41,880 bases of DNA. Origin: a virus. Under the pieces are notes generated by a model that was not told the origin of the DNA, ran no database searches, and was given only the letters and a program-made list of their open reading frames with translations. The stretch spans positions 1-41,880 of the IMG/VR virus record IMGVR_UViG_3300037963_002440; one strand, given 5' to 3'. Made by a program: the position numbers and the translations under genes. How positions within the stretch are numbered: position 1 is the first letter of the stretch; each line of letters begins with the position of its first letter. Positions 1 to 41,803 of the stretch are shown here, piece after piece.

Positions 1-168
1 ATTGGATTATGTTGCGAATTTACAGAATACGAAGATTTAAAAGAGTTTCAAGGTGAATATTATGATGACATAGAAGGCGATAAATATAAAGCACTTGAAG
101 AAATAGAAAATGAAACAATTGTAATAAAAATCGAAGGAACAGAAGGATTTATTATACAAGATTTTTAA
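1..168 (+). CDS. C-terminal part of a small acidic hypothetical protein (5' end outside the linear window)
   Basis: Frame 1 is open from the first base and stops at TAA 166-168, giving 55 residues rich in Glu, Asp and Tyr, with two Cys near the visible start. No family is recognised. If the two ends of the window are joined, the frame continues in phase to ATG 41872-41874, adding only three residues (Met-Cys-Val), which would make a complete protein of 58 residues. There is no clear SD before that ATG. Promoter P1 lies just after the stop. Confidence 0.6.
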   Translation: MGLCCEFTEYEDLKEFQGEYYDDIEGDKYKALEEIENETIVIKIEGTEGFIIQDF

Positions 169-184
169 ATAAATAAAAATAAAT

Positions 185-214
185 GGGAACTTTTAACAAA
201 CTAAGACATTAAAT
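185..214 (+). promoter_or_regulatory. early promoter P1 (GGGAAC-N18-TTAAAT)
   Basis: GGGAAC at 185-190, TTTT directly after it, then a -10-like TTAAAT at 209-214 exactly 18 bases downstream of the AAC end. It is the first of six such elements in the left 3.1 kb. The 13-base leader ACAAACAAAAGGA (222-234) and the start codon at 242 follow. Confidence 0.65.
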
Positions 215-241
215 ATATATAACAAACAAAAGGAAAATAAA

Positions 242-478
242 ATGATATTTGAACATGAACATAATAATTATCCGAATAATTATAAAATAATAAATGATGG
301 TAGGACTTTAAAAGCTTTAAAAAATAGGGGATATATTGACAGCTATGACAAACAATTTAAATACATTGAATGTAGCTTTAAGCAACAATTAACACCTATT
401 AATTATAAAAATGAAACCTATAAAATTAAATACTTTGATGGTTGTTTTAGTCCATTTATTATAAAAGAATTAAAATAA
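242..478 (+). CDS. early hypothetical protein, 78 aa
   Basis: Begins 27 bases after the -10 of promoter P1, with SD AAAGGA at 229-234. The protein is rich in Asn, Tyr and Lys, with no transmembrane segment and no recognised domain; two cysteines do not form a CxxC pair. It stands alone between P1 and P2, so it is probably expressed as an early monocistron or read through into the next gene. Function unknown. Confidence 0.7.
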   Translation: MIFEHEHNNYPNNYKIINDGRTLKALKNRGYIDSYDKQFKYIECSFKQQLTPINYKNETYKIKYFDGCFSPFIIKELK

Positions 479-480
479 AT

Positions 481-510
481 TGGAACTTTTAAGAAACTAA
501 GGAATATAAT
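481..510 (+). promoter_or_regulatory. early promoter P2 (TGGAAC-N18-TATAAT)
   Basis: GGAAC at 482-486 followed by TTTT, an 18-base spacer and a perfect TATAAT at 505-510. It lies in the gap between the 242-478 gene and the gene starting at 531. Confidence 0.7.
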
Positions 511-530
511 ATAAAAAGGGGATAAATAAA

Positions 531-719
531 ATGAAAAATGACATAACAAAAAACAAAGTAAAAGAATGGTTAAAGTCTGAACATATTGATGAAGTAGATG
601 TTGACAATGCAATAGAAGTTTTATATTGTTTAGCAAGTGGTCAATATACCATTGGAAAATTAAGAGAAGACGTGCGAAATCATTATAATAACAATTGGGA
701 ATATATGGAGGATAAATAA
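531..719 (+). CDS. early hypothetical protein, 62 aa
   Basis: First gene behind promoter P2, with an A/G-rich SD (AAAAGGGG). A small helical-looking acidic protein with no recognised family. Its 3' end carries the GGAGG ribosome site of the next gene (start 721), which begins one base after this stop, so the two are probably translationally coupled. Confidence 0.7.
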   Translation: MKNDITKNKVKEWLKSEHIDEVDVDNAIEVLYCLASGQYTIGKLREDVRNHYNNNWEYMEDK

Positions 720-720
720 A

Positions 721-834
721 ATGTTTACAATATTATGGAGTTTATTTATGGGGTTGGTTTTTGGTGTGGTGGTGTTAACATTATTAACAATAATAAGATT
801 AGACATAAAAAGAAATAAACGGGAACTTTTTTGA
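721..834 (+). CDS. single-TM small protein, 37 aa
   Basis: ATG 721 with GGAGG about ten bases upstream. Residues 3-25 are almost entirely hydrophobic (one transmembrane helix), followed by a basic tail (KRNKRE), predicting an inner-membrane protein with its C-terminus in the cytoplasm by the positive-inside rule. The last codons overlap promoter P3 (GGGAAC at 821-826). No family recognised; an early membrane-acting peptide of unknown role. Confidence 0.6.
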   Translation: MFTILWSLFMGLVFGVVVLTLLTIIRLDIKRNKRELF

Positions 835-850
835 AACAATAACATATAAT
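821..850 (+). promoter_or_regulatory. early promoter P3 (GGGAAC-N18-TATAAT)
   Basis: GGGAAC 821-826, TTTT, 18-base spacer, TATAAT 845-850. The upstream half lies inside the last codons of the 37-aa membrane protein gene. Confidence 0.7.
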
Positions 851-868
851 AAAAAAAGGATAAATAAA

Positions 869-1093
869 ATGAAGAAATATAGAAAGGATATAAGAAAAGC
901 ATATGAACTTGTGGAAAATGCTCATGATTTAATGGAACAAGCAGAAAGAGTTGTAGTGTTTGGTAATGATAGAACTTTTAATCTTATTTCAAATATGAAC
1001 TCTAAAATGGAACAATTGTTAGATGATATAAAACAAAGAATAATTATGCAAGATGTACATATTTATACTGAATTAATAAAGGGGAACAAATGA
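869..1093 (+). CDS. early helical hypothetical protein, 74 aa
   Basis: First gene behind promoter P3, SD AAAAAGGA. The sequence is charged and almost entirely helix-forming, with heptad-like Leu/Ile/Met spacing, suggesting a small coiled coil. No recognised family. Its stop overlaps the next start (ATGA at 1090-1093), so the downstream zinc-ribbon protein is coupled to it. Confidence 0.7.
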   Translation: MKKYRKDIRKAYELVENAHDLMEQAERVVVFGNDRTFNLISNMNSKMEQLLDDIKQRIIMQDVHIYTELIKGNK

Positions 1094-1272
1094 ATTTAAC
1101 AGAAATTAAACTTAAAGATTATTGTTGTGAAAATTGTGGGGAACAAGATAACTGGATTGATGAAGGCAAAGAAGGACACATATTAGAAAGAACATTTTTT
1201 AGAGATATATATTGTTATGCTTGTAATAATTTATCTCAATTAATAAATAAACGGGAACAAATAAATATTTAA
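1090..1272 (+). CDS. zinc-ribbon-like early protein, 60 aa
   Basis: ATGA overlap with the preceding gene. Four cysteines in two pairs (CENC near residues 13-16 and CYAC near 42-45) fit a one-zinc ribbon. Such phage mini-proteins often contact nucleic acids or host proteins, but no specific role can be assigned. The last codons contain the GGGAAC of promoter P4. Confidence 0.7.
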   Translation: MNLTEIKLKDYCCENCGEQDNWIDEGKEGHILERTFFRDIYCYACNNLSQLINKREQINI

Positions 1273-1282
1273 GATGTATAAA
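1253..1282 (+). promoter_or_regulatory. early promoter P4 (GGGAAC-N18-TATAAA)
   Basis: GGGAAC 1253-1258 inside the end of the zinc-ribbon gene, 18-base spacer, TATAAA 1277-1282, then the 13-base leader (1290-1302). Unlike P1-P3 and P6, the bases after GGGAAC are AAAT rather than TTTT. Confidence 0.6.
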
Positions 1283-1310
1283 ATAAATAACAAACAAAAG
1301 GATAAATAAA

Positions 1311-1649
1311 ATGAAAATAGCAAACTATGAAATAAAAAATAAAAGTATTAAAAAAATAGCAGAAACTTTAAGCGATAATGGATTCAATCCTCATTGGGAA
1401 AAAAATGATGAATCGGGAGATTGGTATCTTGGAATGAATGATGAAGGTTGTGAGGCTATATGTATTCCTAATCATGACGGATTTGGGGAACAAGTAGAGG
1501 ATTGTTTTTTGAATGATTGTGATAAAGGTAAAGATGTGATGTGGGAACTTGGAAGATATTCAAATAGAATGATTTATGTTAAAGAACAATATGCAGAAGA
1601 TATGACAGAAGAAGAAATGGATTTTTTATGTAAAAATGATGAATATTAA
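1311..1649 (+). CDS. early acidic hypothetical protein, 112 aa
   Basis: Behind promoter P4, with SD AAAGGA in the repeated leader. The protein is strongly acidic, with Trp- and Cys-containing segments (five Cys not arranged as CxxC pairs) and a Glu-rich C-terminal half. The fold could be a compact alpha/beta domain, and the acidity is compatible with DNA mimicry, but that is only a possibility. No recognised family. Confidence 0.75.
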   Translation: MKIANYEIKNKSIKKIAETLSDNGFNPHWEKNDESGDWYLGMNDEGCEAICIPNHDGFGEQVEDCFLNDCDKGKDVMWELGRYSNRMIYVKEQYAEDMTEEEMDFLCKNDEY

Positions 1650-1662
1650 AAATAATACGGGT

Positions 1663-1677
1663 AGAGCTGATGGCTCT
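1663..1677 (+). promoter_or_regulatory. small hairpin ahead of a ribosome site
   Basis: AGAGC (1663-1667) and GCTCT (1673-1677) form a 5-bp stem with a TGATG loop in the 58-base gap before the GTG-start gene at 1708. No U-run follows, so it is not a classical terminator; it could tune translation or mRNA stability. Confidence 0.3.
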
Positions 1678-1707
1678 CACAAAACAAACAAAAGGAGGTA
1701 GAAAAGA

Positions 1708-1848
1708 GTGGAACTATTTAACGTAATAGCATTATTGATTGGATTTGCTTTTCTTTGGAAGTTAATTAAAAAGTTCATGCTAAATCTGATTGATAGAGAA
1801 AACGAACGATATGAAAGAAAAAAAGAAAATGATTGGAACAAATCATAA
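1708..1848 (+). CDS. single-TM small protein with GTG start, 46 aa
   Basis: GTG 1708 lies 7 bases after an AAAGGAGG ribosome site, which decides the start. Residues 4-18 are hydrophobic (one TM helix), followed by a highly charged tail. No family recognised. The last codons carry the GGAAC of promoter P5. A second copy of the 13-base leader (1684-1696) sits upstream without its own promoter. Confidence 0.6.
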   Translation: MELFNVIALLIGFAFLWKLIKKFMLNLIDRENERYERKKENDWNKS

Positions 1849-1863
1849 ACTAAGACATATAAG
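1835..1863 (+). promoter_or_regulatory. early promoter P5 (GGAAC-N18-TATAAG)
   Basis: GGAAC 1835-1839 inside the end of the GTG-start gene, 18-base spacer, TATAAG 1858-1863, then the leader at 1871-1883. The eight bases before the -10, CTAAGACA, are identical to those in P1. Confidence 0.65.
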
Positions 1864-1890
1864 ATACATAACAAACAAAAGGAATATAAA

Positions 1891-2100
1891 ATGATAAAAT
1901 GGAAAAAAAGCGAATATCCAAATGTAGATGTTTTAACTGATGACAAGCTAGATATTAAGGTTCAAGTATCTTATCATAACATCGGTGGACAACCCCTTAA
2001 GATTGACAAGACATCTAGGGATGCTATAAAAAGAGCTGTTAGACAAGTGTTAGTTTTTAAATCAATTAATGATAAAAAGGAGATAAAAAATGACAGATGA
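1891..2100 (+). CDS. early hypothetical protein, 69 aa
   Basis: Behind promoter P5 with SD AAAGGA. It begins MIKWKKSEYP, then a short beta-rich stretch and a basic helical C-terminus. No family recognised. It overlaps the next gene by 11 bases, and that gene's SD (AAAAAGGAG) lies inside this one, indicating coupling. Confidence 0.7.
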   Translation: MIKWKKSEYPNVDVLTDDKLDIKVQVSYHNIGGQPLKIDKTSRDAIKRAVRQVLVFKSINDKKEIKNDR

Positions 2101-2233
2101 AGAAGTTTTCCAACATCAAAGAGTATTAAGAGTATTCTATGAAACCATAGAAAGACTTAGAAAAGATATAAAACAATTAAGTGATGATGAATTAACAGAA
2201 CTAAAAACCAAACTAAGTGAATGGTTAAAATAA
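2090..2233 (+). CDS. small helical protein, 47 aa
   Basis: ATG 2090 with AAGGAG at 2078-2083 inside the preceding gene. All-helical charged peptide (TEELxxLKxxLSEWLK-like C-terminus). No recognised family. Co-transcribed from P5 with its neighbours. Confidence 0.6.
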   Translation: MTDEEVFQHQRVLRVFYETIERLRKDIKQLSDDELTELKTKLSEWLK

Positions 2234-2243
2234 AGGAGAATAG

Positions 2244-2600
2244 ATGAAAATAGGTCAAATAAGAAAAGTGATTGGTGTTTCAGCGAATGATATCAATGAC
2301 ATATTGGTTGGAGCATTTGAAGGTGGCTCTAACTATTGGATTGATAAAGTAAGTGTAGTAGATGATGATTATAAAGGTGGTGAGTATGCTTCAGATGTCA
2401 TTGGATTGGGTGGCGAACTTTTAATCCATACAATAGATGGTGGGAAACATAAATTAACACAAGCAATGATGTTTGATGGTATTCAAAGATATGTTGATAA
2501 TGGTGGGAAACACTTTCCATTTACTGATGGAAATCCAGATGCTTATACATATGACACCATGCTACAAAACGCATTGTTTAAGGAGGTTGTATATGGATAG
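2244..2600 (+). CDS. conserved phage hypothetical protein, 118 aa
   Basis: SD AAAGGAG ten bases upstream. The stretch AFEGGSNYWIDKV (residues 28-40) followed by a GGEYASDVI segment and a histidine/glycine-rich central part resembles a widespread family of phage accessory proteins of unknown function in which an EGGxNYW motif is conserved. That assignment is from memory of the motif. It sits in the P5 operon and overlaps the following gene by 8 bases. Confidence 0.75.
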   Translation: MKIGQIRKVIGVSANDINDILVGAFEGGSNYWIDKVSVVDDDYKGGEYASDVIGLGGELLIHTIDGGKHKLTQAMMFDGIQRYVDNGGKHFPFTDGNPDAYTYDTMLQNALFKEVVYG

Positions 2601-2745
2601 AGATGCAAAACTTGTTGAATGGTTAGAGGAAAATTTCAGCTTACATGATGTTGATATGATTTTTAATACATTAGATGAGTTCAGAGACTTTGACACAAAG
2701 CAAGGTGAAATTACATTTTTAGATTTTATAAATAAAAACTATTAA
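2593..2745 (+). CDS. small acidic protein, 50 aa
   Basis: ATG 2593 is chosen because a near-perfect AAGGAGGT ribosome site precedes it by five bases. The same frame is open back to 2473 but has no ribosome site there and would overlap the 118-aa gene extensively. Acidic, helical, no recognised family. Confidence 0.65.
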   Translation: MDRDAKLVEWLEENFSLHDVDMIFNTLDEFRDFDTKQGEITFLDFINKNY

Positions 2746-2754
2746 GGAGGAAAA

Positions 2755-2895
2755 ATGAAGAGATTTAAAGTAACTATAATACTTGAAGTAGAAAATCAAT
2801 CTGTTGAGGATATGAAATATAATGCTCAAGGCTATATTAAAGATGATATAGAAGACAATGCTCTTTATATCGAAGACATAAAGGAGGAGGAATGA
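2755..2895 (+). CDS. small acidic protein, 46 aa
   Basis: ATG 2755 behind AAGGAGG. Beta strand (KRFKVTIILEV) then an acidic helix ending in EEE. The N-terminal strand resembles that of the 68-aa protein at 4017 (KKIVVKYIIEV), hinting at a small paralogous family. It ends in an ATGA overlap with the next gene. Confidence 0.6.
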   Translation: MKRFKVTIILEVENQSVEDMKYNAQGYIKDDIEDNALYIEDIKEEE

Positions 2896-3026
2896 AGATT
2901 ACAATACCAATAGGAGAAGAAGATATTAGATTGTTTCAAGAACTAATATATTATGGTAGAGAGCCTTTTGAATGGAGGTTTGATGGTGTAGACATTGAAT
3001 TTGTAAGAGAGGAGGAGGAAGAATGA
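2892..3026 (+). CDS. small acidic protein, 44 aa
   Basis: ATGA overlaps at both ends place it in a tightly coupled chain with the genes at 2755 and 3023. SD is GGAGGAGG. Acidic C-terminus (five Glu in a row). No recognised family. Confidence 0.55.
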   Translation: MKITIPIGEEDIRLFQELIYYGREPFEWRFDGVDIEFVREEEEE

Positions 3027-3103
3027 GTTTTTTTGAGTTCATGATGTGGGTATGTGGAGCTAGAATAATAGTGATAATATATAATAAAATAAGAGGATAT
3101 TAA
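3023..3103 (+). CDS. very small membrane peptide, 26 aa
   Basis: ATG 3023 in an ATGA overlap, SD GGAGGAGG inside the upstream gene. Aromatic/aliphatic, Cys-containing peptide with a basic C-terminus (NKIRGY), probably one short membrane helix. Its size leaves real doubt, but the overlap arrangement and SD match its neighbours. Confidence 0.4.
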   Translation: MSFFEFMMWVCGARIIVIIYNKIRGY

Positions 3104-3110
3104 AATAGTT

Positions 3111-3140
3111 GGGAACTTTTTGGAAACATAAACATATAAG
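3111..3140 (+). promoter_or_regulatory. early promoter P6 (GGGAAC-N18-TATAAG)
   Basis: GGGAAC 3111-3116, TTTT, 18-base spacer, TATAAG 3135-3140, then the leader at 3148-3160. This is the last copy; none was found in 3.2-11.4 kb, where other GGAAC occurrences have no -10 at this spacing. Confidence 0.7.
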
Positions 3141-3166
3141 ATATATAACAAACAAAAGGAAGAATA

Positions 3167-3319
3167 ATGAGTTTTAACAAAGATGCATTGATACACAAGT
3201 TACAAGAAGATAGAGATAGATATAGACAAGCCTATGATATATTAATGGATTATTGGGACTTGTTGCCCGAAGAAGCATTGCAAGAAATACATAAAGAACT
3301 AGCCAAGATAGGCTTATAA
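3167..3319 (+). CDS. early helical protein, 50 aa
   Basis: First gene behind promoter P6, SD AAAAGGA in the repeated leader. Two charged helices separated by a DLLPEEAL turn. No recognised family. Its stop codon touches the next copy of the 13-base leader. Confidence 0.65.
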   Translation: MSFNKDALIHKLQEDRDRYRQAYDILMDYWDLLPEEALQEIHKELAKIGL

Positions 3320-3339
3320 CAAACAAAAGGAGATAGAAA

Positions 3340-6386: not shown

Positions 6387-7030
6387 TGAGTATAACAGAC
6401 GATATGTTTGACAAAGCTGTGAACGAAACAAGTTTTGCACTACCTACAGAGGACAAGCCTAGGCAATCAAAAGGTGATAAAAAGCATCCACTAGTGAGTG
6501 GTGACTATGTTGGCCACATAACACAAGTAAATAGCAAGGTAGTTGATGTAAAGGGTGGTGAATACAAAGCAAGAGTCTATGACTACTTTGTTGAGGTTGC
6601 TCCCGAAAACAAGGACAACAAGTATACTTACACAGACTACAAATCAAAAGATGTTGTAGGTTGTGATGGAAGTAGTTATGTTGGTTACAAGTTCAAAGGT
6701 TCTGCGTTCAAATATCTTGAGCCTGGAAAAGATGACAAGTTTAAATCAAGAACGGAGTTCAACAAATACTATCTATGGTTTTGTGAAGCATGTGGTATTG
6801 AATGCAAAACAATTACAACCGAAATAGATGGTCAAGATGTTGAGGTTAAAGAACTACCAGTGATTGACATGGAAGAGCTTGTTGGTACACCCGTAACAGC
6901 TGTTGTGGGACAAGGCAAAACATGGACTGATAGTGATGGGAACGAACGAACACCATGGGTTGTTAAGTTTGTTAGACCTTGGGCAGATGGAAAGAAGAAG
7001 GAGATGAATGATGCAGAAATACCGTTCTAG
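6386..7030 (+). CDS. SSB-like ssDNA-binding protein with acidic PF tail
   Basis: 214 aa, next to the annealase. A beta-rich central domain (GDYVGHITQVNSKV..., TPVTAVVGQGKTW, PWVVKFVRPW) is compatible with an OB fold, as in phage ssDNA-binding proteins. The last residues, NDAEIPF, mimic the bacterial SSB C-terminal tip (acidic then I/L-P-F) that recruits replication and repair partners. Residue-level homology to a named family is not certain. Its 3' end overlaps the HTH gene. Confidence 0.65.
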   Translation: MSITDDMFDKAVNETSFALPTEDKPRQSKGDKKHPLVSGDYVGHITQVNSKVVDVKGGEYKARVYDYFVEVAPENKDNKYTYTDYKSKDVVGCDGSSYVGYKFKGSAFKYLEPGKDDKFKSRTEFNKYYLWFCEACGIECKTITTEIDGQDVEVKELPVIDMEELVGTPVTAVVGQGKTWTDSDGNERTPWVVKFVRPWADGKKKEMNDAEIPF

Positions 7031-7148
7031 GATTAATTCATTCAAATCAGTTATGATGAAAGGTGCGTATTTGTTAGGTATGAAACCTAAAAAGATAGCA
7101 CGTAAATTTAATGTATCTTTGGCGAGTGTATACAGACACATTAAATAA
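7011..7148 (+). CDS. small helix-turn-helix protein, 45 aa
   Basis: AAGAAGGAG at 6995-7003 places the start at ATG 7011 (ATG 7008, directly in front, is the alternative). The C-terminal half, GMKPKKIARKFNVSLASVYRHIK, has the resolvase/Hin-like HTH pattern with the recognition helix at SLASVYRHI; the N-terminus is basic. This is essentially a free DNA-binding helix set, probably a transcriptional or replication-site binder. It overlaps the SSB-like gene by 20 bases and the 7111-7353 frame by 38. Confidence 0.65.
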   Translation: MQKYRSRINSFKSVMMKGAYLLGMKPKKIARKFNVSLASVYRHIK

Positions 7149-11014: not shown

Positions 11015-11444
11015 AGTATTTGGTGAAGCTAATATATATCAAGGAGGTAGATGGGTGCCAATAACAGAAGAAGTACAGCAAAAGTTTGACCATGACTTAG
11101 AGTTTGGTAGGCTTGGTGAAAACTTTGTAGAAAGCATGCAGAGTGAAAATACCAAGATTGAGGTTAAGACAGAACGAGATATATGGAAAACAACAGGGAA
11201 TATTGCAATAGAGATTAGATGTAGAGGTAAAAAGTCTGGGATATCTGTGACAGAAGCAGATACTTGGATTCATCTTCTTAGTTATAAAAACAAAATTGAA
11301 GGTGGTTTTATCTTTAGCACTAAGTATTTAAAGGATAAGATTGTTGAGATGCATAAAAATGATGAACTTAAATTAGTAATGGGTGGGGATGATAATATGT
11401 CTCAAATGGTGCTTATACCTATAAAAAAACTATTTACTAAATAG
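10989..11444 (+). CDS. PD-(D/E)XK-like endonuclease family protein, TTG start
   Basis: TTG 10989 is the start supported by AGGAGAG five bases upstream; no ATG exists near the N-terminus. Motifs: GRLGENF (E44), IEVK (E58, K60), NIAIEIRCRGKKSGI (E75) and TEADTW, a pattern seen in small endonuclease-like proteins of T7-like cyanophages (recalled). It probably cuts DNA during replication or host genome breakdown. Last plus-strand gene of the cluster; its stop overlaps the convergent 1878-aa gene by 8 bases. Confidence 0.65.
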   Translation: MITLKKIVEVFGEANIYQGGRWVPITEEVQQKFDHDLEFGRLGENFVESMQSENTKIEVKTERDIWKTTGNIAIEIRCRGKKSGISVTEADTWIHLLSYKNKIEGGFIFSTKYLKDKIVEMHKNDELKLVMGGDDNMSQMVLIPIKKLFTK

Positions 11445-14400
11445 AATATTTTTTACCGTAAATACCATATTTGTTCCAATACTTTTCGTTATTTATAACT
11501 TTATAAAATTTTCTGAGCAAGTATTCGTATTGTTTTTCACTTTTAAGTAGCTCATCAAGACCTTCTTGTCCATATTTTCTTCTTGTCCACCTTATAAGTA
11601 AACTCTTTTTAGATATTGTTTTGCCATCAGATGTAGTATCAGAAACTTTTAAAGGATTCATAAAGCTTACAGATTGCTTGATACGTTTAATTGCGTCTTT
11701 ATGCCTTTGTGTTGGTGTTGTTCCTGGGAACTCTGAGTTCTGCATTATATCTGCATAAGCAGCAAAAAATGTTTTTGCAATATCTTCCTCAGTTCCAAAA
11801 TATATAGCCTCTTTTAAATCCCTATTGTAGTAATTCTTTGTAAATGTATCACCTCTATTTTCAATGCCATAATCATCATTGAATTGAGACATTCTTGCGT
11901 TCATCTTTCTTGCAAGTTCCCACTCTGGAGATTTAGCGTTTCTTTTCATTTTGTCTGCTTGTGCATATAAAACAACTGATTGTTTTGCAAACTCATCGGC
12001 AGCTTGTAAAATATTTCTTTTTCCTGTAATTGCATTATATGTAGCTTCAGCTCCCAACATCAGATTGTTAAGCACAACTGGTTTCATTAGGTTTGATGTA
12101 ACCCCTCTATCATATGGGTCATATATAAAGCCTGCTAAACCAAGCATCTCAGAACGATTAATATAAAAGAATGCTTCTGCTAATTTATCATTAGATGATT
12201 CTGGGCTTTCCTCATTAAAAAGTTTTTTATACATAGCATACAATCCCATACCACCTAGATAATGCCCTATCGTTGCTCTGGCCAAAGGTGCAATATTTCC
12301 ACGAAGAGCAGGCTTGACATAGTTTTGAACAGTATCATGAGTTGTAGAGTAAGCTATTCTTTGGAACAATGTCAAAGGTCTACCAACATTACTTGACATC
12401 CATAATGGTAACTGTCCTACTGATGTCCCCCCTTGCGTTGATATATGAGAGTAGTGCTCAACTTGTCTTAGTATTTCTTGGTATCGTTTAAAATCTGCCT
12501 TGTTACCTATTTCGCCTTTTAAAACCAAAGCTATATCTTTTTCACTTAATTTGTACATGTCCTTTAAAACTCTTGTAGCATTATTTTTTGAGCCTGTTAC
12601 ACCAAAAACATCGTGACTACCTTTTAATATACCAAGTTGTTGAGAGAAGTACATTTTACCAGCTTCCATCGCAGCTATTCTGTTGTAGTTTTCAGTAAGC
12701 TCCATCAAGTTTCCTCTAAACAATTTTTCCATTGGTATATAATCTGAAATTTTACCCTTACCGTCTGCACCAAGTTCAAGTGTTTTAGGTGTATATCCAA
12801 GTGCCCCAGACTCTCTTCCTTTTTTCCATCCTGCATAAGTCAATGCCTTTGCATAACCTGCCATAGTATTGTAAAGACCAAATGATGCAAAATTACGAGG
12901 AAGACCAATTAATATGTTTTTAACACCAGATGTTGGGGATGACAGTCCAATAGCGGCAGATACAGTAGACATATCTTGAAGAATGCTTTCATATCCTTTA
13001 GTCTTACCATCCATACCAATAAGTCTTCTTATGGCACTATCTGCGTATTTCCCTAAACTATTATTTTTTAATGCTAAATTAAACCTGTCTAAACCAGCCT
13101 CATTAAGGCCATATTTTTTACCCAACCCTGTATATTCTGGAAAATGTTTTAAGGTAGCAAGATACTTAGACATGCCTACAATATAAGGCTCAATTGTATT
13201 TTGCATTTTATGCTCATACGTTCTAATTATTTTTTTCTGACCACTAGGTGTTGTTATCTCTATAAAAGCATCCAGCAAAGGTCCACGTTCTTTTAAGTAG
13301 TTACTTTGAACAAGATGGTGTTGATGTGTCATTATGTTAATTAGATTTTCAGCTGTCTTATCTCTAAGTCTTTTACCTTCAACACTTGTTGGGTCAGTCA
13401 ATTTTTCATAATAATTTTTATATTGCTTGCTATTTTTATCTGAGTATTTATCACCAGCCATTGTTTTTGCCTGTCTTTTAACAGCAGCATCTAAATCTTT
13501 CAGTAAGACGCTTTGGTCTTTACTTGATATTAAATATTCCCTAGCTTCTTTTGTTAGCCTTCTTGTAAAATAATCTCTAACAAATTTATTACTAAATTCT
13601 TTTTTAAATTTTGCATATTCTTTAGGACTATATAAAACTTTAGCTTCCTTGGCTAGTGAGTTCCAGTAAAACTCAGTCAAACTACGCAACTCTTGCTTAG
13701 CTAAATAAGCATTAGAGCCTTCATGTTTACCAGTTTTTGTATTAAATTTACCTTTTTCAATAGAGCCATAAAACTTAGCCTCAGCTGCTGTCAATGCTGG
13801 AGCATTCTTATCCTTCATGTAAGCCTTAACCATATCTTTATCCATCATCCAAATATGTTCAACATCTTTTTTAAGAAGCTCTCTTATTCTTGCAGCCTTT
13901 GCATCACCTCTACCTTTATATTCATTAGTATACGTAACGTCAAACTTTATAAATTTATCAGCAATCTTTTTTCCAGCTGGGACACCAGACTCTCTTAACA
14001 TATAGTATACAGGTAAGCCAAACTTTCTAGCCAAGTTTCTAGTAACAGGGAAATTACCTAGCTCTACGATTGAATTAAAAGTGCTTTCAAACCCTTCTGC
14101 TTTAGCAGGTCCTTTGTCATGCTTTTCAACAAGATATTTAAAATACTCTCTATTTTGTGGAGTAAGTTTACTTACATCACCAGTGCCCTCACCTAACAAC
14201 CTAACAATGCTTTGTTCCTCTAGTTTAGATATGTTACGGTCCTTGGCGTAATTTTTTATATCTAACTTTTCTTTCCCAGATTTATACATAGACTCAACAC
14301 GTTTAGCCCACTCTCTCATACTAGTTAAGCTTAAATCTTTGCTTGAACGAGCACTTAATTGAGAAGTGGTCTCAAGACCTGCACCACCTTTTTTCTGTAT

Positions 14401-17073
14401 TCCAAACAATGATTTTGGTATTCCATGCATATCCCTAATTGCATCTATTTCTGTTTTTGTATAGCCCATTTCGTTTTCAAGCTTTCGTTCATACTTATTA
14501 GCTATATAATTAGCATTAGATTTATCTTGTATTGTTTCTTTAGATTGATTTCCTTTGCTATCTAGCTTGTGATGAATCTTACTTCTTTCAATGGACTTGC
14601 TGACATCTCCTTTAGCTCTGGACATTATCCAAGAAATATCTTCTTTTGTCCCTACATCTAGGACCTCACTTGCTCTTTTGAAGAAATCTTTTGCAAAACT
14701 TTTAGATTTAGATATTAAAATCTTGTCCTTCATTTTGCCTGTAGCAAACTCGTTTATTCTTTTAGTTAACATGTTTTCTTGGGCAGTTCTAAACTCAGCA
14801 TCAGTCTTATAGTCTTTTCTTTTAATGTCTTTAGCAAACATTTTAATACCTTTATCAATTATAGACTTATCTTTACTTGTGCCTAATTGCTTTAATATAC
14901 TCACAACATGTTTTGATATTTCTTTGGGCACAGAATCAATCTTTGTTCTGCCCTCTAATATGCTTGTAGTTTGCTCAACGACTTTGTTTAATACTTTGTC
15001 TGCTCTAACCTTACCAATATCTTTATCTAAATTATCTTTTAATTTTTTATAAGACTCTACATCTTTCAGATACTCTGCTTGAGCCTCTTTTTTCTCAACT
15101 TCTTTTTGAATTTTTTGTTGCATTCTTTGCACTTGTGCTTCTGTAACAGGCTTTTTTAAACTAGAAAAAGCAATTGGGTCTTTAACACCAGATATGTATG
15201 CCAATGGAGTGTCGTTCTTTCCAACAACTATAGATTCTATTGTCCCTGCAGACTCAACCTTCTTACCATCTTTGGAAACAGTTTCATACTCAACAGTTTC
15301 ACCCTCTTTAAACTTAGACTTTTCCTTTAGCTGTGGAGACATCTTTTTAAATCCTGCATCTGCCTCTCCTTTTTTCCTAATATTATAAGCCTCAATTCTT
15401 GTTGCTAAAGTGTTTCTAACTTCAGGGTTGCTCAAGTCATATCTTTTGCCAGTCTTAGGGTCAATAGCATTTAAATCAACAATAAAGCTACCATCTTTCT
15501 CGACATTCATTTCTTTTAATTTTTTCTCAGATACTGGCTCAACTTTTGGTTTAGGTTTTAAAGGTATTGGTTGTTGAGCAGGGGTTTGAGCACTTAATGA
15601 TTCAAACGATGCATCGAAACTTTCTTCTATTTTGTTTAACTTTTCTCTTAAAGCTTTGACTGATTTTTTTTGTTGTTGAGTTACATTAAATTCAACTCCA
15701 GAAATCTCACCTTTTTCACCTTGCCTTAAAACTTCCTCAGCTAATTTAATTGTTTGAACAGCCTCAGCAATTGTTTTACCACTACCCTCTATCTTCTTAG
15801 GGTCACCAGACTCTATTATCTTATCAACTTTATCAAGTGATTTACCCAGCTTGGTGAGCATATTGTCAACTTCTTTAGCAGAACCAAGGTTTCTATTGAT
15901 TTCTGCCTGCACTTCTTTTGTGTCAACATTATAATCTTCTAAATTCTTTTTAACATTCTCTAAAGACTCATTTGTCTTATTGGTCTCTTTATTATAACCC
16001 TTTCGTATTTCATCACGCCATGCCTTTGTATGCTCTTGAATAGCTTTACCTAAAGGAGTCTCTGCAATTTTTTCTGCAGCTTTTTGTTTACCAAAGCCAT
16101 ATGTTTTTAAAGCACCAAACATACCAATATTTCTAGCCCAAGCTTTTAGAAAGTCTTTACCAGCGACATCTTCTCCAGCATTAATTCTGTCAGCCATTTC
16201 ACTTGCTGTAAACACAGTTGACTCAGCTCCTACTTGTCCAGGAATACCATAACCAACCCTCGCTTTTAGCCAGTCACCTTTTCCTAAAGGTTTTTTACCA
16301 CCAGCTTTTAATATCTCAGCTGCCTTAGCACCCATACCTCCACCAATACCACCTGTAATAGCACCTAGTGCGGCTCCATGCCACAATCCATGTACAATAC
16401 CATCCATAGGATTGTTGCCTTCAATCTTAGACTGTACACCACCAATTGCAGCTTCATATAATGCCAATGTAGGTGCATTGCCTGCAGCACCCATTAATGC
16501 TTTATCTATTTTTGTTAAATTAGGAATAAAATTCTCTGGTAGTGACTCACCTGTTTTTAGTGCATTGTCAACAGTTTTCTTGCCGAACTTTTTATATGCT
16601 TTGTTTTTTACAAGTTTTTGCCCTAAGCTACCAGCAACAGCCTTACCAGCAACTGTTCCAACTTTCATTGTAATAATATCAAGAGGCATAAAGAAAGACA
16701 TGAGGCTTGCACCTATATCTTCAAGAACTGTAAAATCTGTTTCGTCAACATTGTAACGTGCAGTCCCTGTAATCATTTTTTCAGTTAAACCTGTTAGGGA
16801 GCGAGTATAGGATGCTTTCATCCAATCTGGAGAGTCTTCGTTAATCCAAAGGTCAGCCCAACTTTCAAGAGTGCTTAAATCATTTTTACCGTCAAGAGCT
16901 TCATCTGGGACAAATTGATTGTCAGGGCTATTGTAGTCATATTCTTCTGGAAGCATTCCACTTCTTGCAAGAGTGGATTCAAGCAGTTGGTCACTCATGT
17001 TTCTGTAATGAGCTGGTGAGCTTGGAGAGTTTCTAACTCTGTCTAAATATTTTTTATAATCTATATCTGCCAT
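11437..17073 (-). CDS. giant putative internal virion/ejection protein, 1878 aa
   Basis: The last and largest gene of the late cluster. Near the N-terminus there are Gly/Ala-rich hydrophobic stretches (about residues 110-155 and 215-250) that could insert in membranes. Then come long Lys/Glu helical and coiled-coil regions (about 350-480 and 640-760), and a long mixed C-terminal part with more hydrophobic segments. This build and its place behind other ejection candidates fit the large internal virion protein of podoviruses (T7 gp16-like by position, not by clear homology). No transglycosylase or nuclease motif was identified. The start has no strong SD. Confidence 0.65.
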   Translation of the reverse strand: MADIDYKKYLDRVRNSPSSPAHYRNMSDQLLESTLARSGMLPEEYDYNSPDNQFVPDEALDGKNDLSTLESWADLWINEDSPDWMKASYTRSLTGLTEKMITGTARYNVDETDFTVLEDIGASLMSFFMPLDIITMKVGTVAGKAVAGSLGQKLVKNKAYKKFGKKTVDNALKTGESLPENFIPNLTKIDKALMGAAGNAPTLALYEAAIGGVQSKIEGNNPMDGIVHGLWHGAALGAITGGIGGGMGAKAAEILKAGGKKPLGKGDWLKARVGYGIPGQVGAESTVFTASEMADRINAGEDVAGKDFLKAWARNIGMFGALKTYGFGKQKAAEKIAETPLGKAIQEHTKAWRDEIRKGYNKETNKTNESLENVKKNLEDYNVDTKEVQAEINRNLGSAKEVDNMLTKLGKSLDKVDKIIESGDPKKIEGSGKTIAEAVQTIKLAEEVLRQGEKGEISGVEFNVTQQQKKSVKALREKLNKIEESFDASFESLSAQTPAQQPIPLKPKPKVEPVSEKKLKEMNVEKDGSFIVDLNAIDPKTGKRYDLSNPEVRNTLATRIEAYNIRKKGEADAGFKKMSPQLKEKSKFKEGETVEYETVSKDGKKVESAGTIESIVVGKNDTPLAYISGVKDPIAFSSLKKPVTEAQVQRMQQKIQKEVEKKEAQAEYLKDVESYKKLKDNLDKDIGKVRADKVLNKVVEQTTSILEGRTKIDSVPKEISKHVVSILKQLGTSKDKSIIDKGIKMFAKDIKRKDYKTDAEFRTAQENMLTKRINEFATGKMKDKILISKSKSFAKDFFKRASEVLDVGTKEDISWIMSRAKGDVSKSIERSKIHHKLDSKGNQSKETIQDKSNANYIANKYERKLENEMGYTKTEIDAIRDMHGIPKSLFGIQKKGGAGLETTSQLSARSSKDLSLTSMREWAKRVESMYKSGKEKLDIKNYAKDRNISKLEEQSIVRLLGEGTGDVSKLTPQNREYFKYLVEKHDKGPAKAEGFESTFNSIVELGNFPVTRNLARKFGLPVYYMLRESGVPAGKKIADKFIKFDVTYTNEYKGRGDAKAARIRELLKKDVEHIWMMDKDMVKAYMKDKNAPALTAAEAKFYGSIEKGKFNTKTGKHEGSNAYLAKQELRSLTEFYWNSLAKEAKVLYSPKEYAKFKKEFSNKFVRDYFTRRLTKEAREYLISSKDQSVLLKDLDAAVKRQAKTMAGDKYSDKNSKQYKNYYEKLTDPTSVEGKRLRDKTAENLINIMTHQHHLVQSNYLKERGPLLDAFIEITTPSGQKKIIRTYEHKMQNTIEPYIVGMSKYLATLKHFPEYTGLGKKYGLNEAGLDRFNLALKNNSLGKYADSAIRRLIGMDGKTKGYESILQDMSTVSAAIGLSSPTSGVKNILIGLPRNFASFGLYNTMAGYAKALTYAGWKKGRESGALGYTPKTLELGADGKGKISDYIPMEKLFRGNLMELTENYNRIAAMEAGKMYFSQQLGILKGSHDVFGVTGSKNNATRVLKDMYKLSEKDIALVLKGEIGNKADFKRYQEILRQVEHYSHISTQGGTSVGQLPLWMSSNVGRPLTLFQRIAYSTTHDTVQNYVKPALRGNIAPLARATIGHYLGGMGLYAMYKKLFNEESPESSNDKLAEAFFYINRSEMLGLAGFIYDPYDRGVTSNLMKPVVLNNLMLGAEATYNAITGKRNILQAADEFAKQSVVLYAQADKMKRNAKSPEWELARKMNARMSQFNDDYGIENRGDTFTKNYYNRDLKEAIYFGTEEDIAKTFFAAYADIMQNSEFPGTTPTQRHKDAIKRIKQSVSFMNPLKVSDTTSDGKTISKKSLLIRWTRRKYGQEGLDELLKSEKQYEYLLRKFYKVINNEKYWNKYGIYGKKYSI

Positions 17074-41261: not shown

Positions 41262-41629
41262 CATATTTGGTTTTAAAAAAAATTTAACATAAATTACACC
41301 TCGCATAAATGGTTTGGTTTGAGACTTGTTGCGTTTATGTTAGAAAAAGTAGCTACAATAAGGGGTGAATCAAAGCTACAGGCCAACTCGAAGACAATTG
41401 AGGCCGATTCTAGGGAAATAACCCGAAACTGATGATTGTCCGTGGTTTTAGTTTATTTGCTATAATCATATCCGATGGCAATATGGCTCCGAGAGTCTAA
41501 ATTGCAAAGGATTTAGAGAACTCTAGTAAGTGCTAGGGGTAATATCTCTCTATCCTTTCAACAATATTCACCAAGAGTCTATTAATAAAATATTTTGTAT
41601 ATTATATATTATAATAAACAAGGAGAAAA
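41262..41629. other. gene-free divergent region with extensive secondary structure
   Basis: No ORF with a ribosome site was seen. Stems: GTAGCT/AGCTAC (41349-41354/41374-41379); GGCC...GGCC (41381-41405); GGG/CCC (41413-41415/41422-41424); GACAAT/ATTGTC (41393-41398/41435-41440); TCTAAAT/ATTTAGA (41496-41502/41511-41517); and a 7+5-bp stem 41506-41519 with 41545-41558 that cannot coexist with the previous one. A TATAAT lies at 41461-41466. Could be a structured RNA, a regulatory leader or an origin. It matches no RNA class I recognise. Confidence 0.5.
41610..41615 (+). promoter_or_regulatory. -10-like TATAAT before the 57-aa gene
   Basis: TATAAT at 41610-41615, 15 bases from the start codon at 41630, in a very AT-rich run; no convincing -35. 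The SD AAGGAG follows. Confidence 0.3.
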
Positions 41630-41803
41630 ATGAAGATTAAAGGCGTAAACTTAAAAGATTTAACAAAAAAACAACAAAACGCAATGAAAAGACATTCTGT
41701 TCATCATACAGGAAATCATATCAAAGCTATGGTAAATGCAATGAAGAAAGGTAAGACATTTACACAATCACACAAAGATGCAATGAAAAAAGTAGGTAAA
41801 TAA
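41630..41803 (+). CDS. small basic HH/Lys-rich phage protein, 57 aa
   Basis: SD AAGGAG five bases from ATG. Sequence LTKKQQNAMKRHSVHHTGNH then IKAMVNAMKKGKTFTQSH and DAMKKVGK. Small proteins with this KxxHSxHHTxxHxxxM pattern recur in marine phages (recalled). Its strong basicity recalls the three Lys-rich proteins of the late cluster, suggesting nucleic acid binding. It is on the plus strand, divergent from the late genes, and would be the first gene of the early region if the genome is circular. Confidence 0.7.
   Translation: MKIKGVNLKDLTKKQQNAMKRHSVHHTGNHIKAMVNAMKKGKTFTQSHKDAMKKVGK

Follow-up and report, generated by a model that had tools for sequence, protein, structure and literature searches.

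Which sigma factor reads the promoter-like motif repeated at the beginning of the early region is the question raised by the virus contig IMGVR_UViG_3300037963_002440, an IMG/VR record whose entire 41,880 nucleotides are called here the window. A sequence-only reading of this DNA had described six early promoters in which a GGAAC box, the one used by extracytoplasmic function (ECF) sigma factors, is combined with a TATAAT-like −10 box after an invariant spacer of 18 bases, and had proposed a hybrid promoter, an activator-assisted host promoter or one read by a phage-modified polymerase. The analysis presented here points to ECF-type promoters that would be read by an ECF sigma factor of the host, a reading to which a probability of roughly 0.6 is assigned. 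The six predicted promoters are as follows.

P1, 186 to 214, plus strand: −35 GGAAC at 186-190; −10 CATT at 207-210 (TTAAAT at 209-214); predicted start near 221; heads gene 242-478.
P2, 482 to 510, plus strand: −35 GGAAC at 482-486; −10 AATA at 503-506 (TATAAT at 505-510); predicted start near 517; heads gene 531-719.
P3, 822 to 850, plus strand: −35 GGAAC at 822-826; −10 CATA at 843-846 (TATAAT at 845-850); predicted start near 857; heads gene 869-1093; overlaps the 3' end of the open reading frame 721-834.
P4, 1254 to 1282, plus strand: −35 GGAAC at 1254-1258; −10 TGTA at 1275-1278 (TATAAA at 1277-1282); predicted start near 1289; heads gene 1311-1649; overlaps the 3' end of the open reading frame 1090-1272.
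P5, 1835 to 1863, plus strand: −35 GGAAC at 1835-1839; −10 CATA at 1856-1859 (TATAAG at 1858-1863); predicted start near 1870; heads gene 1891-2100; overlaps the 3' end of the gene that starts with GTG at 1708 and ends at about 1848.
P6, 3112 to 3140, plus strand: −35 GGAAC at 3112-3116; −10 CATA at 3133-3136 (TATAAG at 3135-3140); predicted start near 3147; heads gene 3167-3319.

All of the sites were found where they had been described, on the plus strand within 186-3140, with the listed −10-like boxes beginning 18 bases after GGAAC; the continuation GGAACTTTT after the −10 box in four of the six and the location of P3, P4 and P5 inside the ends of upstream reading frames were likewise borne out. 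Each site precedes a small early gene, with predicted leaders of 12-22 nucleotides, and in 6/6 the −35 element is GGAAC and not of the TTGACA type. The six sites are far beyond chance. The exact arrangement GGAAC-N18-TATAA occurs five times, always on the plus strand (482-3139), against 0.11 copies expected per window, and none of 100 shuffles reached five. An unbiased ranking of all 5-mer pairs also put this pair at the top for the early arm, and a shuffle test of bases 1-3300 gave seven relaxed matches against 0.1 expected. A 40-bp weight matrix run over the 41,880-base record scored the six sites at 36-46 bits, the runner-up place at 15.1 and random sequence at 16.1 at most, a gap that is partly by construction, as the matrix was derived from the same six sites. 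The statement that other GGAAC sites have no −10 box at that distance needs one amendment, since the GGAAC at 1083 is followed after 18 bases by TTAAAC; this place scores only 12.4 bits. The leader ACAAACAAAAGGA, found after several of the promoters, also precedes genes with no promoter copy (window 1680-1700 and 3316-3336) and is perhaps a translation element.

To keep the selection independent of the motif, 80 loci were fetched by their terminase alone. The motif search over related phages that had been suggested earlier was carried out, and the motif recurs: it is present, in several copies each, in a wide set of family contigs with large terminase (terL) and portal proteins about 40% and 49% identical to those of the window. 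In the early arms of the terminase-selected loci, 52 GGAAC sites before start codons were aligned with no −10 requirement. Downstream of an AT-rich segment, this alignment showed GGAAC followed by a T-tract, then (A/C)-G-T 16 bases after GGAAC (G in 71%, T in 81%) and, close to the start, a conserved A. By contrast, the T at −7 of sigma-70 promoters was present in 21% of these sites and in 38% of a 25-contig set, whose counts depend in part on the pattern used for the search, unlike those of the 52 sites and of 16 long-arm loci. The family alignments are anchored on GGAAC; nonetheless, this box also emerged in the dyad that ranked first de novo in the early arms, GGAAC-N17-GTATA, seen 21 times against 0.34 expected, in nine terminase-selected loci.

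The spacing was examined in the 16 long-arm loci. There, (C/A)GT(A/T) was found 34 times at N16, once at N16 in antisense, and 0-5 times at other distances, except for 19 occurrences at N25, which belong to the start region. TATAA floats over 18, 19 and 20 bases in these loci, and the variants AGTATATA, AGTTATAA, CGTTTATA and AGTATTAA keep GT fixed while TATA is shifted; CGTATAAT is one promoter form of this phage family. At the fourth −10 base, GTA (26) was more frequent than GTT (14). Therefore, the 18-base spacer holds within the window, but the family-wide constant is N16 to (C/A)GT. The combination of an ECF box with TATAAT, puzzling in the window, is most simply explained by an ECF-type promoter whose −10 is AT-rich, as is the DNA around it, since at the level of the family GGAAC-N16-(C/A)GT is fixed and T(−7) is not conserved.

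Some loci depart from this pattern. Two long early arms (L350 and L358) carry no motif, and none was found in the cultured marine phages MEP401, Venkman, HTVC010P, HMO-2011 and CRP-5 or in part of HTVC008M. Many of the relatives are fragments, where a missing motif does not mean that it is missing from the phage, and the set compared may lack records very close to the window's own genome. A broad pattern, GGAACTTTTN14TATAA, was discarded because of its many chance matches, and the case was based on the terminase-selected loci instead.

The conserved bases can be compared with those of known ECF promoters. AAC at −35 and CGT at −10 are the elements recognised by ECF sigma factors (PMC8103513). 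The promoters of RpoE and of Bacillus sigma W/M/X resemble the phage family motif in the AAC at −35, the T-tract and the CGT at −10. The EcfG general stress promoters of Alphaproteobacteria have the consensus GGAAC-N16-CGTT, with TGTT, CATT and GGTT as frequent natural variants, and transcription in vitro drops when CGTT is changed to CATT or TGTT (PMC7083833). The phage sites share with them the −35 box, the 16-base spacing and a −10 of the (C/T)GT or CAT type, and P1 is literally GGAAC-N16-CATT; they differ in having A more often than T at the fourth base, in the T-tract that follows GGAAC, in an AT-rich extension and in their location in a phage. A genome scan with TTGGAACTTTTN12CGTATAA gave 17 matches, 12 of them in Bacillaceae; single matches per genome in five other genomes look like chance. 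Known Bacillaceae ECF promoters have a form like that pattern, while the −10 of the classical sigma-E promoter is of the GTC type, unlike the phage motif.

From these patterns we infer that transcription is initiated at the six sites and that the sigma factor involved is of the ECF type and of host origin. In this scheme, an EcfG- or RpoE-like ECF (group IV) sigma factor supplied by the host would contact GGAAC and the T-tract at −35 and, 16 bases on, (C/A)GT or CAT at −10. Transcription would start on an A some 12 bases downstream of the first base of the TATA-like box, leaving leaders of 12-22 nucleotides. Each promoter would drive one small early gene or a few, which would make this part of the early region a succession of short units in place of one operon.

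Several observations weigh against this interpretation. Within the window, the triplet at N16 is CGT-like in only one site (TGT, in TGTA), being CAT in four and AAT in one, and TATAA is present in five; a sigma-70-like −10 may thus be in use in the window's own subclade. Infections also usually begin with the housekeeping sigma factor, which lytic phages are thought to use at the outset. In addition, the motif is absent from a group of close relatives with helicases 77-82% identical to that of the window (L121-L135).

It is conceivable, if unlikely, that the primary sigma factor of the host reads these promoters, with a preference for GGAAC at −35 in this host group and a TATAAT-like −10. The constant 18 bases to TATAA in five of the six window sites would fit, as would the normal start of phage infection with this factor and the spread of the motif over the whole family, which is what host-driven specificity would produce. 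Opposed to this, G(−13) and T(−12) are fixed in the family while TATAA floats and T(−7), present in the window only in P1, P2 and P3, falls to the 38% and 21% given above; GGAAC has little in common with TTGACA; the cultured marine phages named above do not have the motif; and a consensus scan found 57 sigma-70 sites against 56 in shuffled sequence.

The absence of the motif from the close relatives was analyzed together with the genes that the promoters head, which are listed here.

Gene under P1, 242 to 478, plus strand: 78 amino acids; without homolog in the close relatives that lack the motif; one relative, 40% identical, in the motif-bearing contig L295.
Gene under P2, 531 to 719, plus strand: 62 amino acids; homologs of up to 45% identity in motif-free relatives.
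Gene under P3, 869 to 1093, plus strand: 74 amino acids; without homolog in motif-free relatives.
Gene under P4, 1311 to 1649, plus strand: 112 amino acids; without homolog in motif-free relatives.
Gene under P5, 1891 to 2100, plus strand: 69 amino acids; without homolog in motif-free relatives.
Gene under P6, 3167 to 3319, plus strand: 50 amino acids; homologs (76%) in motif-free relatives, where the promoter is absent.

Thus, the genes at 531 and 3167 are kept in the motif-free phages without a promoter, and those at 242, 869, 1311 and 1891 are missing there. Flanking genes conserved without the motif had been named beforehand as the finding that would speak against promoters of this kind, and they occur in this one sister group; yet the motif is found in many more distant members, and the absence is therefore read as loss or module exchange and not as refutation. 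A contrary verdict drawn from the nearest relatives alone was overturned by the family-wide search. Four of the motif-free phages (L129, L132, L133 and L134) have a terminator close to where the early arm begins, shown in the first three to lie after the first early gene, which in L129 and L133 is a homolog of window 1-168; by the same test the window has no early-arm terminator. These intrinsic terminators lie at about 1000 in L133, 5320 in L129, 2690 in L132 and 4380 in L134, and hint at a termination control that replaces the repeated promoters.

Phages whose small terminase (terS) is 88-99% identical to that of the window, known from short fragments, have two kinds of early-arm beginning. 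In L183 and L389, Fur-box-like repeats are followed by a GGAAC promoter, and in L385, L386 and L388 there are apparent leftward genes and no GGAAC promoter within the visible 0.4-1.1 kb. Although the fragments are short, it looks as if the promoter module has been exchanged among sister phages. L183 (terL 97.5% and terS 98% identical) carries two copies of the motif. The Fur-box-like array, of three to four elements (TGATAATGATTCTCA), stands directly before the first GGAAC promoter in L183 (12760-12920), L389 and L390, just beyond the position of the right end of the window; it suggests a host with a classical Fur and does not discriminate between types of sigma factor. The window ends, 41880 and 1, do not join: L183 and L390 continue differently past the right end, so that the window lacks the beginning of the early arm and, with it, probably one more promoter.

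A second alternative, judged quite improbable, is that the phage itself encodes a factor, be it a diverged sigma, a GGAAC-binding activator or a sigma-appropriation factor, through which the host polymerase would use these sites as middle-class promoters. Precedent exists in phiEco32 and 7-11, podoviruses with promoters that are not of the sigma-70 type; both encode a sigma factor, and phiEco32 uses TAATGTATA (PMC4331800). The window, in which no sigma factor had been recognised, gave none in the searches made here either: sigma region 2 was not found in 36 phage records, some of them fragments, nor was a phiEco32-type sigma or a TraR/DksA finger in the phage records searched, and a T7-type RNA polymerase gave no PF00940 match, with a control search equally silent. 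A 46-amino-acid helix-turn-helix protein (7008-7148, plus strand) matches sigma region 4 weakly (E 5e-5), but it is equally conserved, with up to 93% identity, in all of the motif-free relatives. Indeed, no window protein is confined to motif-bearing phages, except for gene 242 with its single weak relative in L295, and the sites lie at the very beginning of the early arm. The earlier suggestion of a phage-modified polymerase is thus not supported, and since no phage sigma was found and no gene tracks the motif, an ECF sigma factor of the host is favoured. An early protein of 214 amino acids was also considered as a sigma factor and set aside, as its gene comes after those of the exonuclease and the annealing protein and its tail, D-I-P-F, is like that of a single-stranded DNA-binding protein (SSB). 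The MotA-dependent middle promoters of T4 likewise combine an upstream box with a TATAAT-like −10, with 12-13 bases between the two; here, GGAAC is at the −35 position, 18 bases from TATAA and 16 from CGT (the MotA gene itself was not searched for).

Finally, a dispersed repeat other than a promoter, such as a binding site or recombination cassette border travelling with accessory genes, is highly improbable: four of the six copies do precede genes missing from motif-free relatives and share a flanking leader, as duplicated cassettes would, but the orientation and distance to the start codon are strict, the two-part architecture has a spacer of variable sequence, the motif is conserved among phages with terminases about 40% identical, and conserved bases lie at the expected start region.

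The promoters open the plus-strand arm of the window (1 to 11.4 kb), which holds small genes of no known function and the following genes.

5036, plus-strand arm: Cas4-like exonuclease.
5811, plus-strand arm: Sak-like annealing protein.
6386, plus-strand arm: SSB-like protein, the 214-amino-acid early protein mentioned above.
9012, plus-strand arm: DnaB-like helicase.
10348, plus-strand arm: Holliday-junction resolvase.

The minus-strand arm (11.4 to 41.2 kb) carries the terminase, portal and capsid genes. From its gene content and terminase matches the phage is read as podovirus-like, and it seems to be marine, judging from the apparent sample type of the contigs and from marine terminase matches. 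None of 50,697 annotated phage records matched the portal, the terminase matched annotated phages only at about 25%, and no near relative was detected among them by BLAST of the DNA, terL, portal or motif. A protein of 1878 amino acids (11437-17073, minus strand) had no PHROG or Pfam match; its close-clade relatives are 26-39% identical.

Additionally, a conserved non-coding block (41290-41590, plus strand) was detected between terS and the gene at 41630, in 20 close-clade contigs. In six sequences, 8 of its 71 predicted pairs stay paired through two-sided changes; there was no Rfam match even at E 0.5, and single-sequence folding was not significant (z −1.4). The block is a possible new structured phage RNA. 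A short direct repeat surrounds its last hairpin, at about 41500 and 41575 and at the same places in L183, L130 and L134; it reads GAGTCTA in the window, AATGCAA in L183 and GAGTAA in L130 and L134, both copies changing in concert.

The literature searched, which included few subscription papers, yielded no description of EcfG or any other ECF sigma reading the early promoters of a phage. A broader picture is put forward tentatively: in a family of uncultured marine podoviruses, early accessory genes may be under a host stress ECF sigma factor (EcfG- or RpoE-like), preceded in the window's subclade by an array of operators resembling Fur boxes, which would make early expression responsive to the stress and perhaps the iron state of the host, with sister phages swapping this module for a terminator-bearing one. 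The motif may also serve as a marker for finding the host, whose genome should hold an ECF regulon with GGAAC-N16-(C/A)GT promoters. If the ECF reading is true, early phage expression would depend on, or exploit, a host stress sigma factor, linking the first phase of infection to the host's condition, and this could bear on the infection of slow-growing or stressed marine cells.

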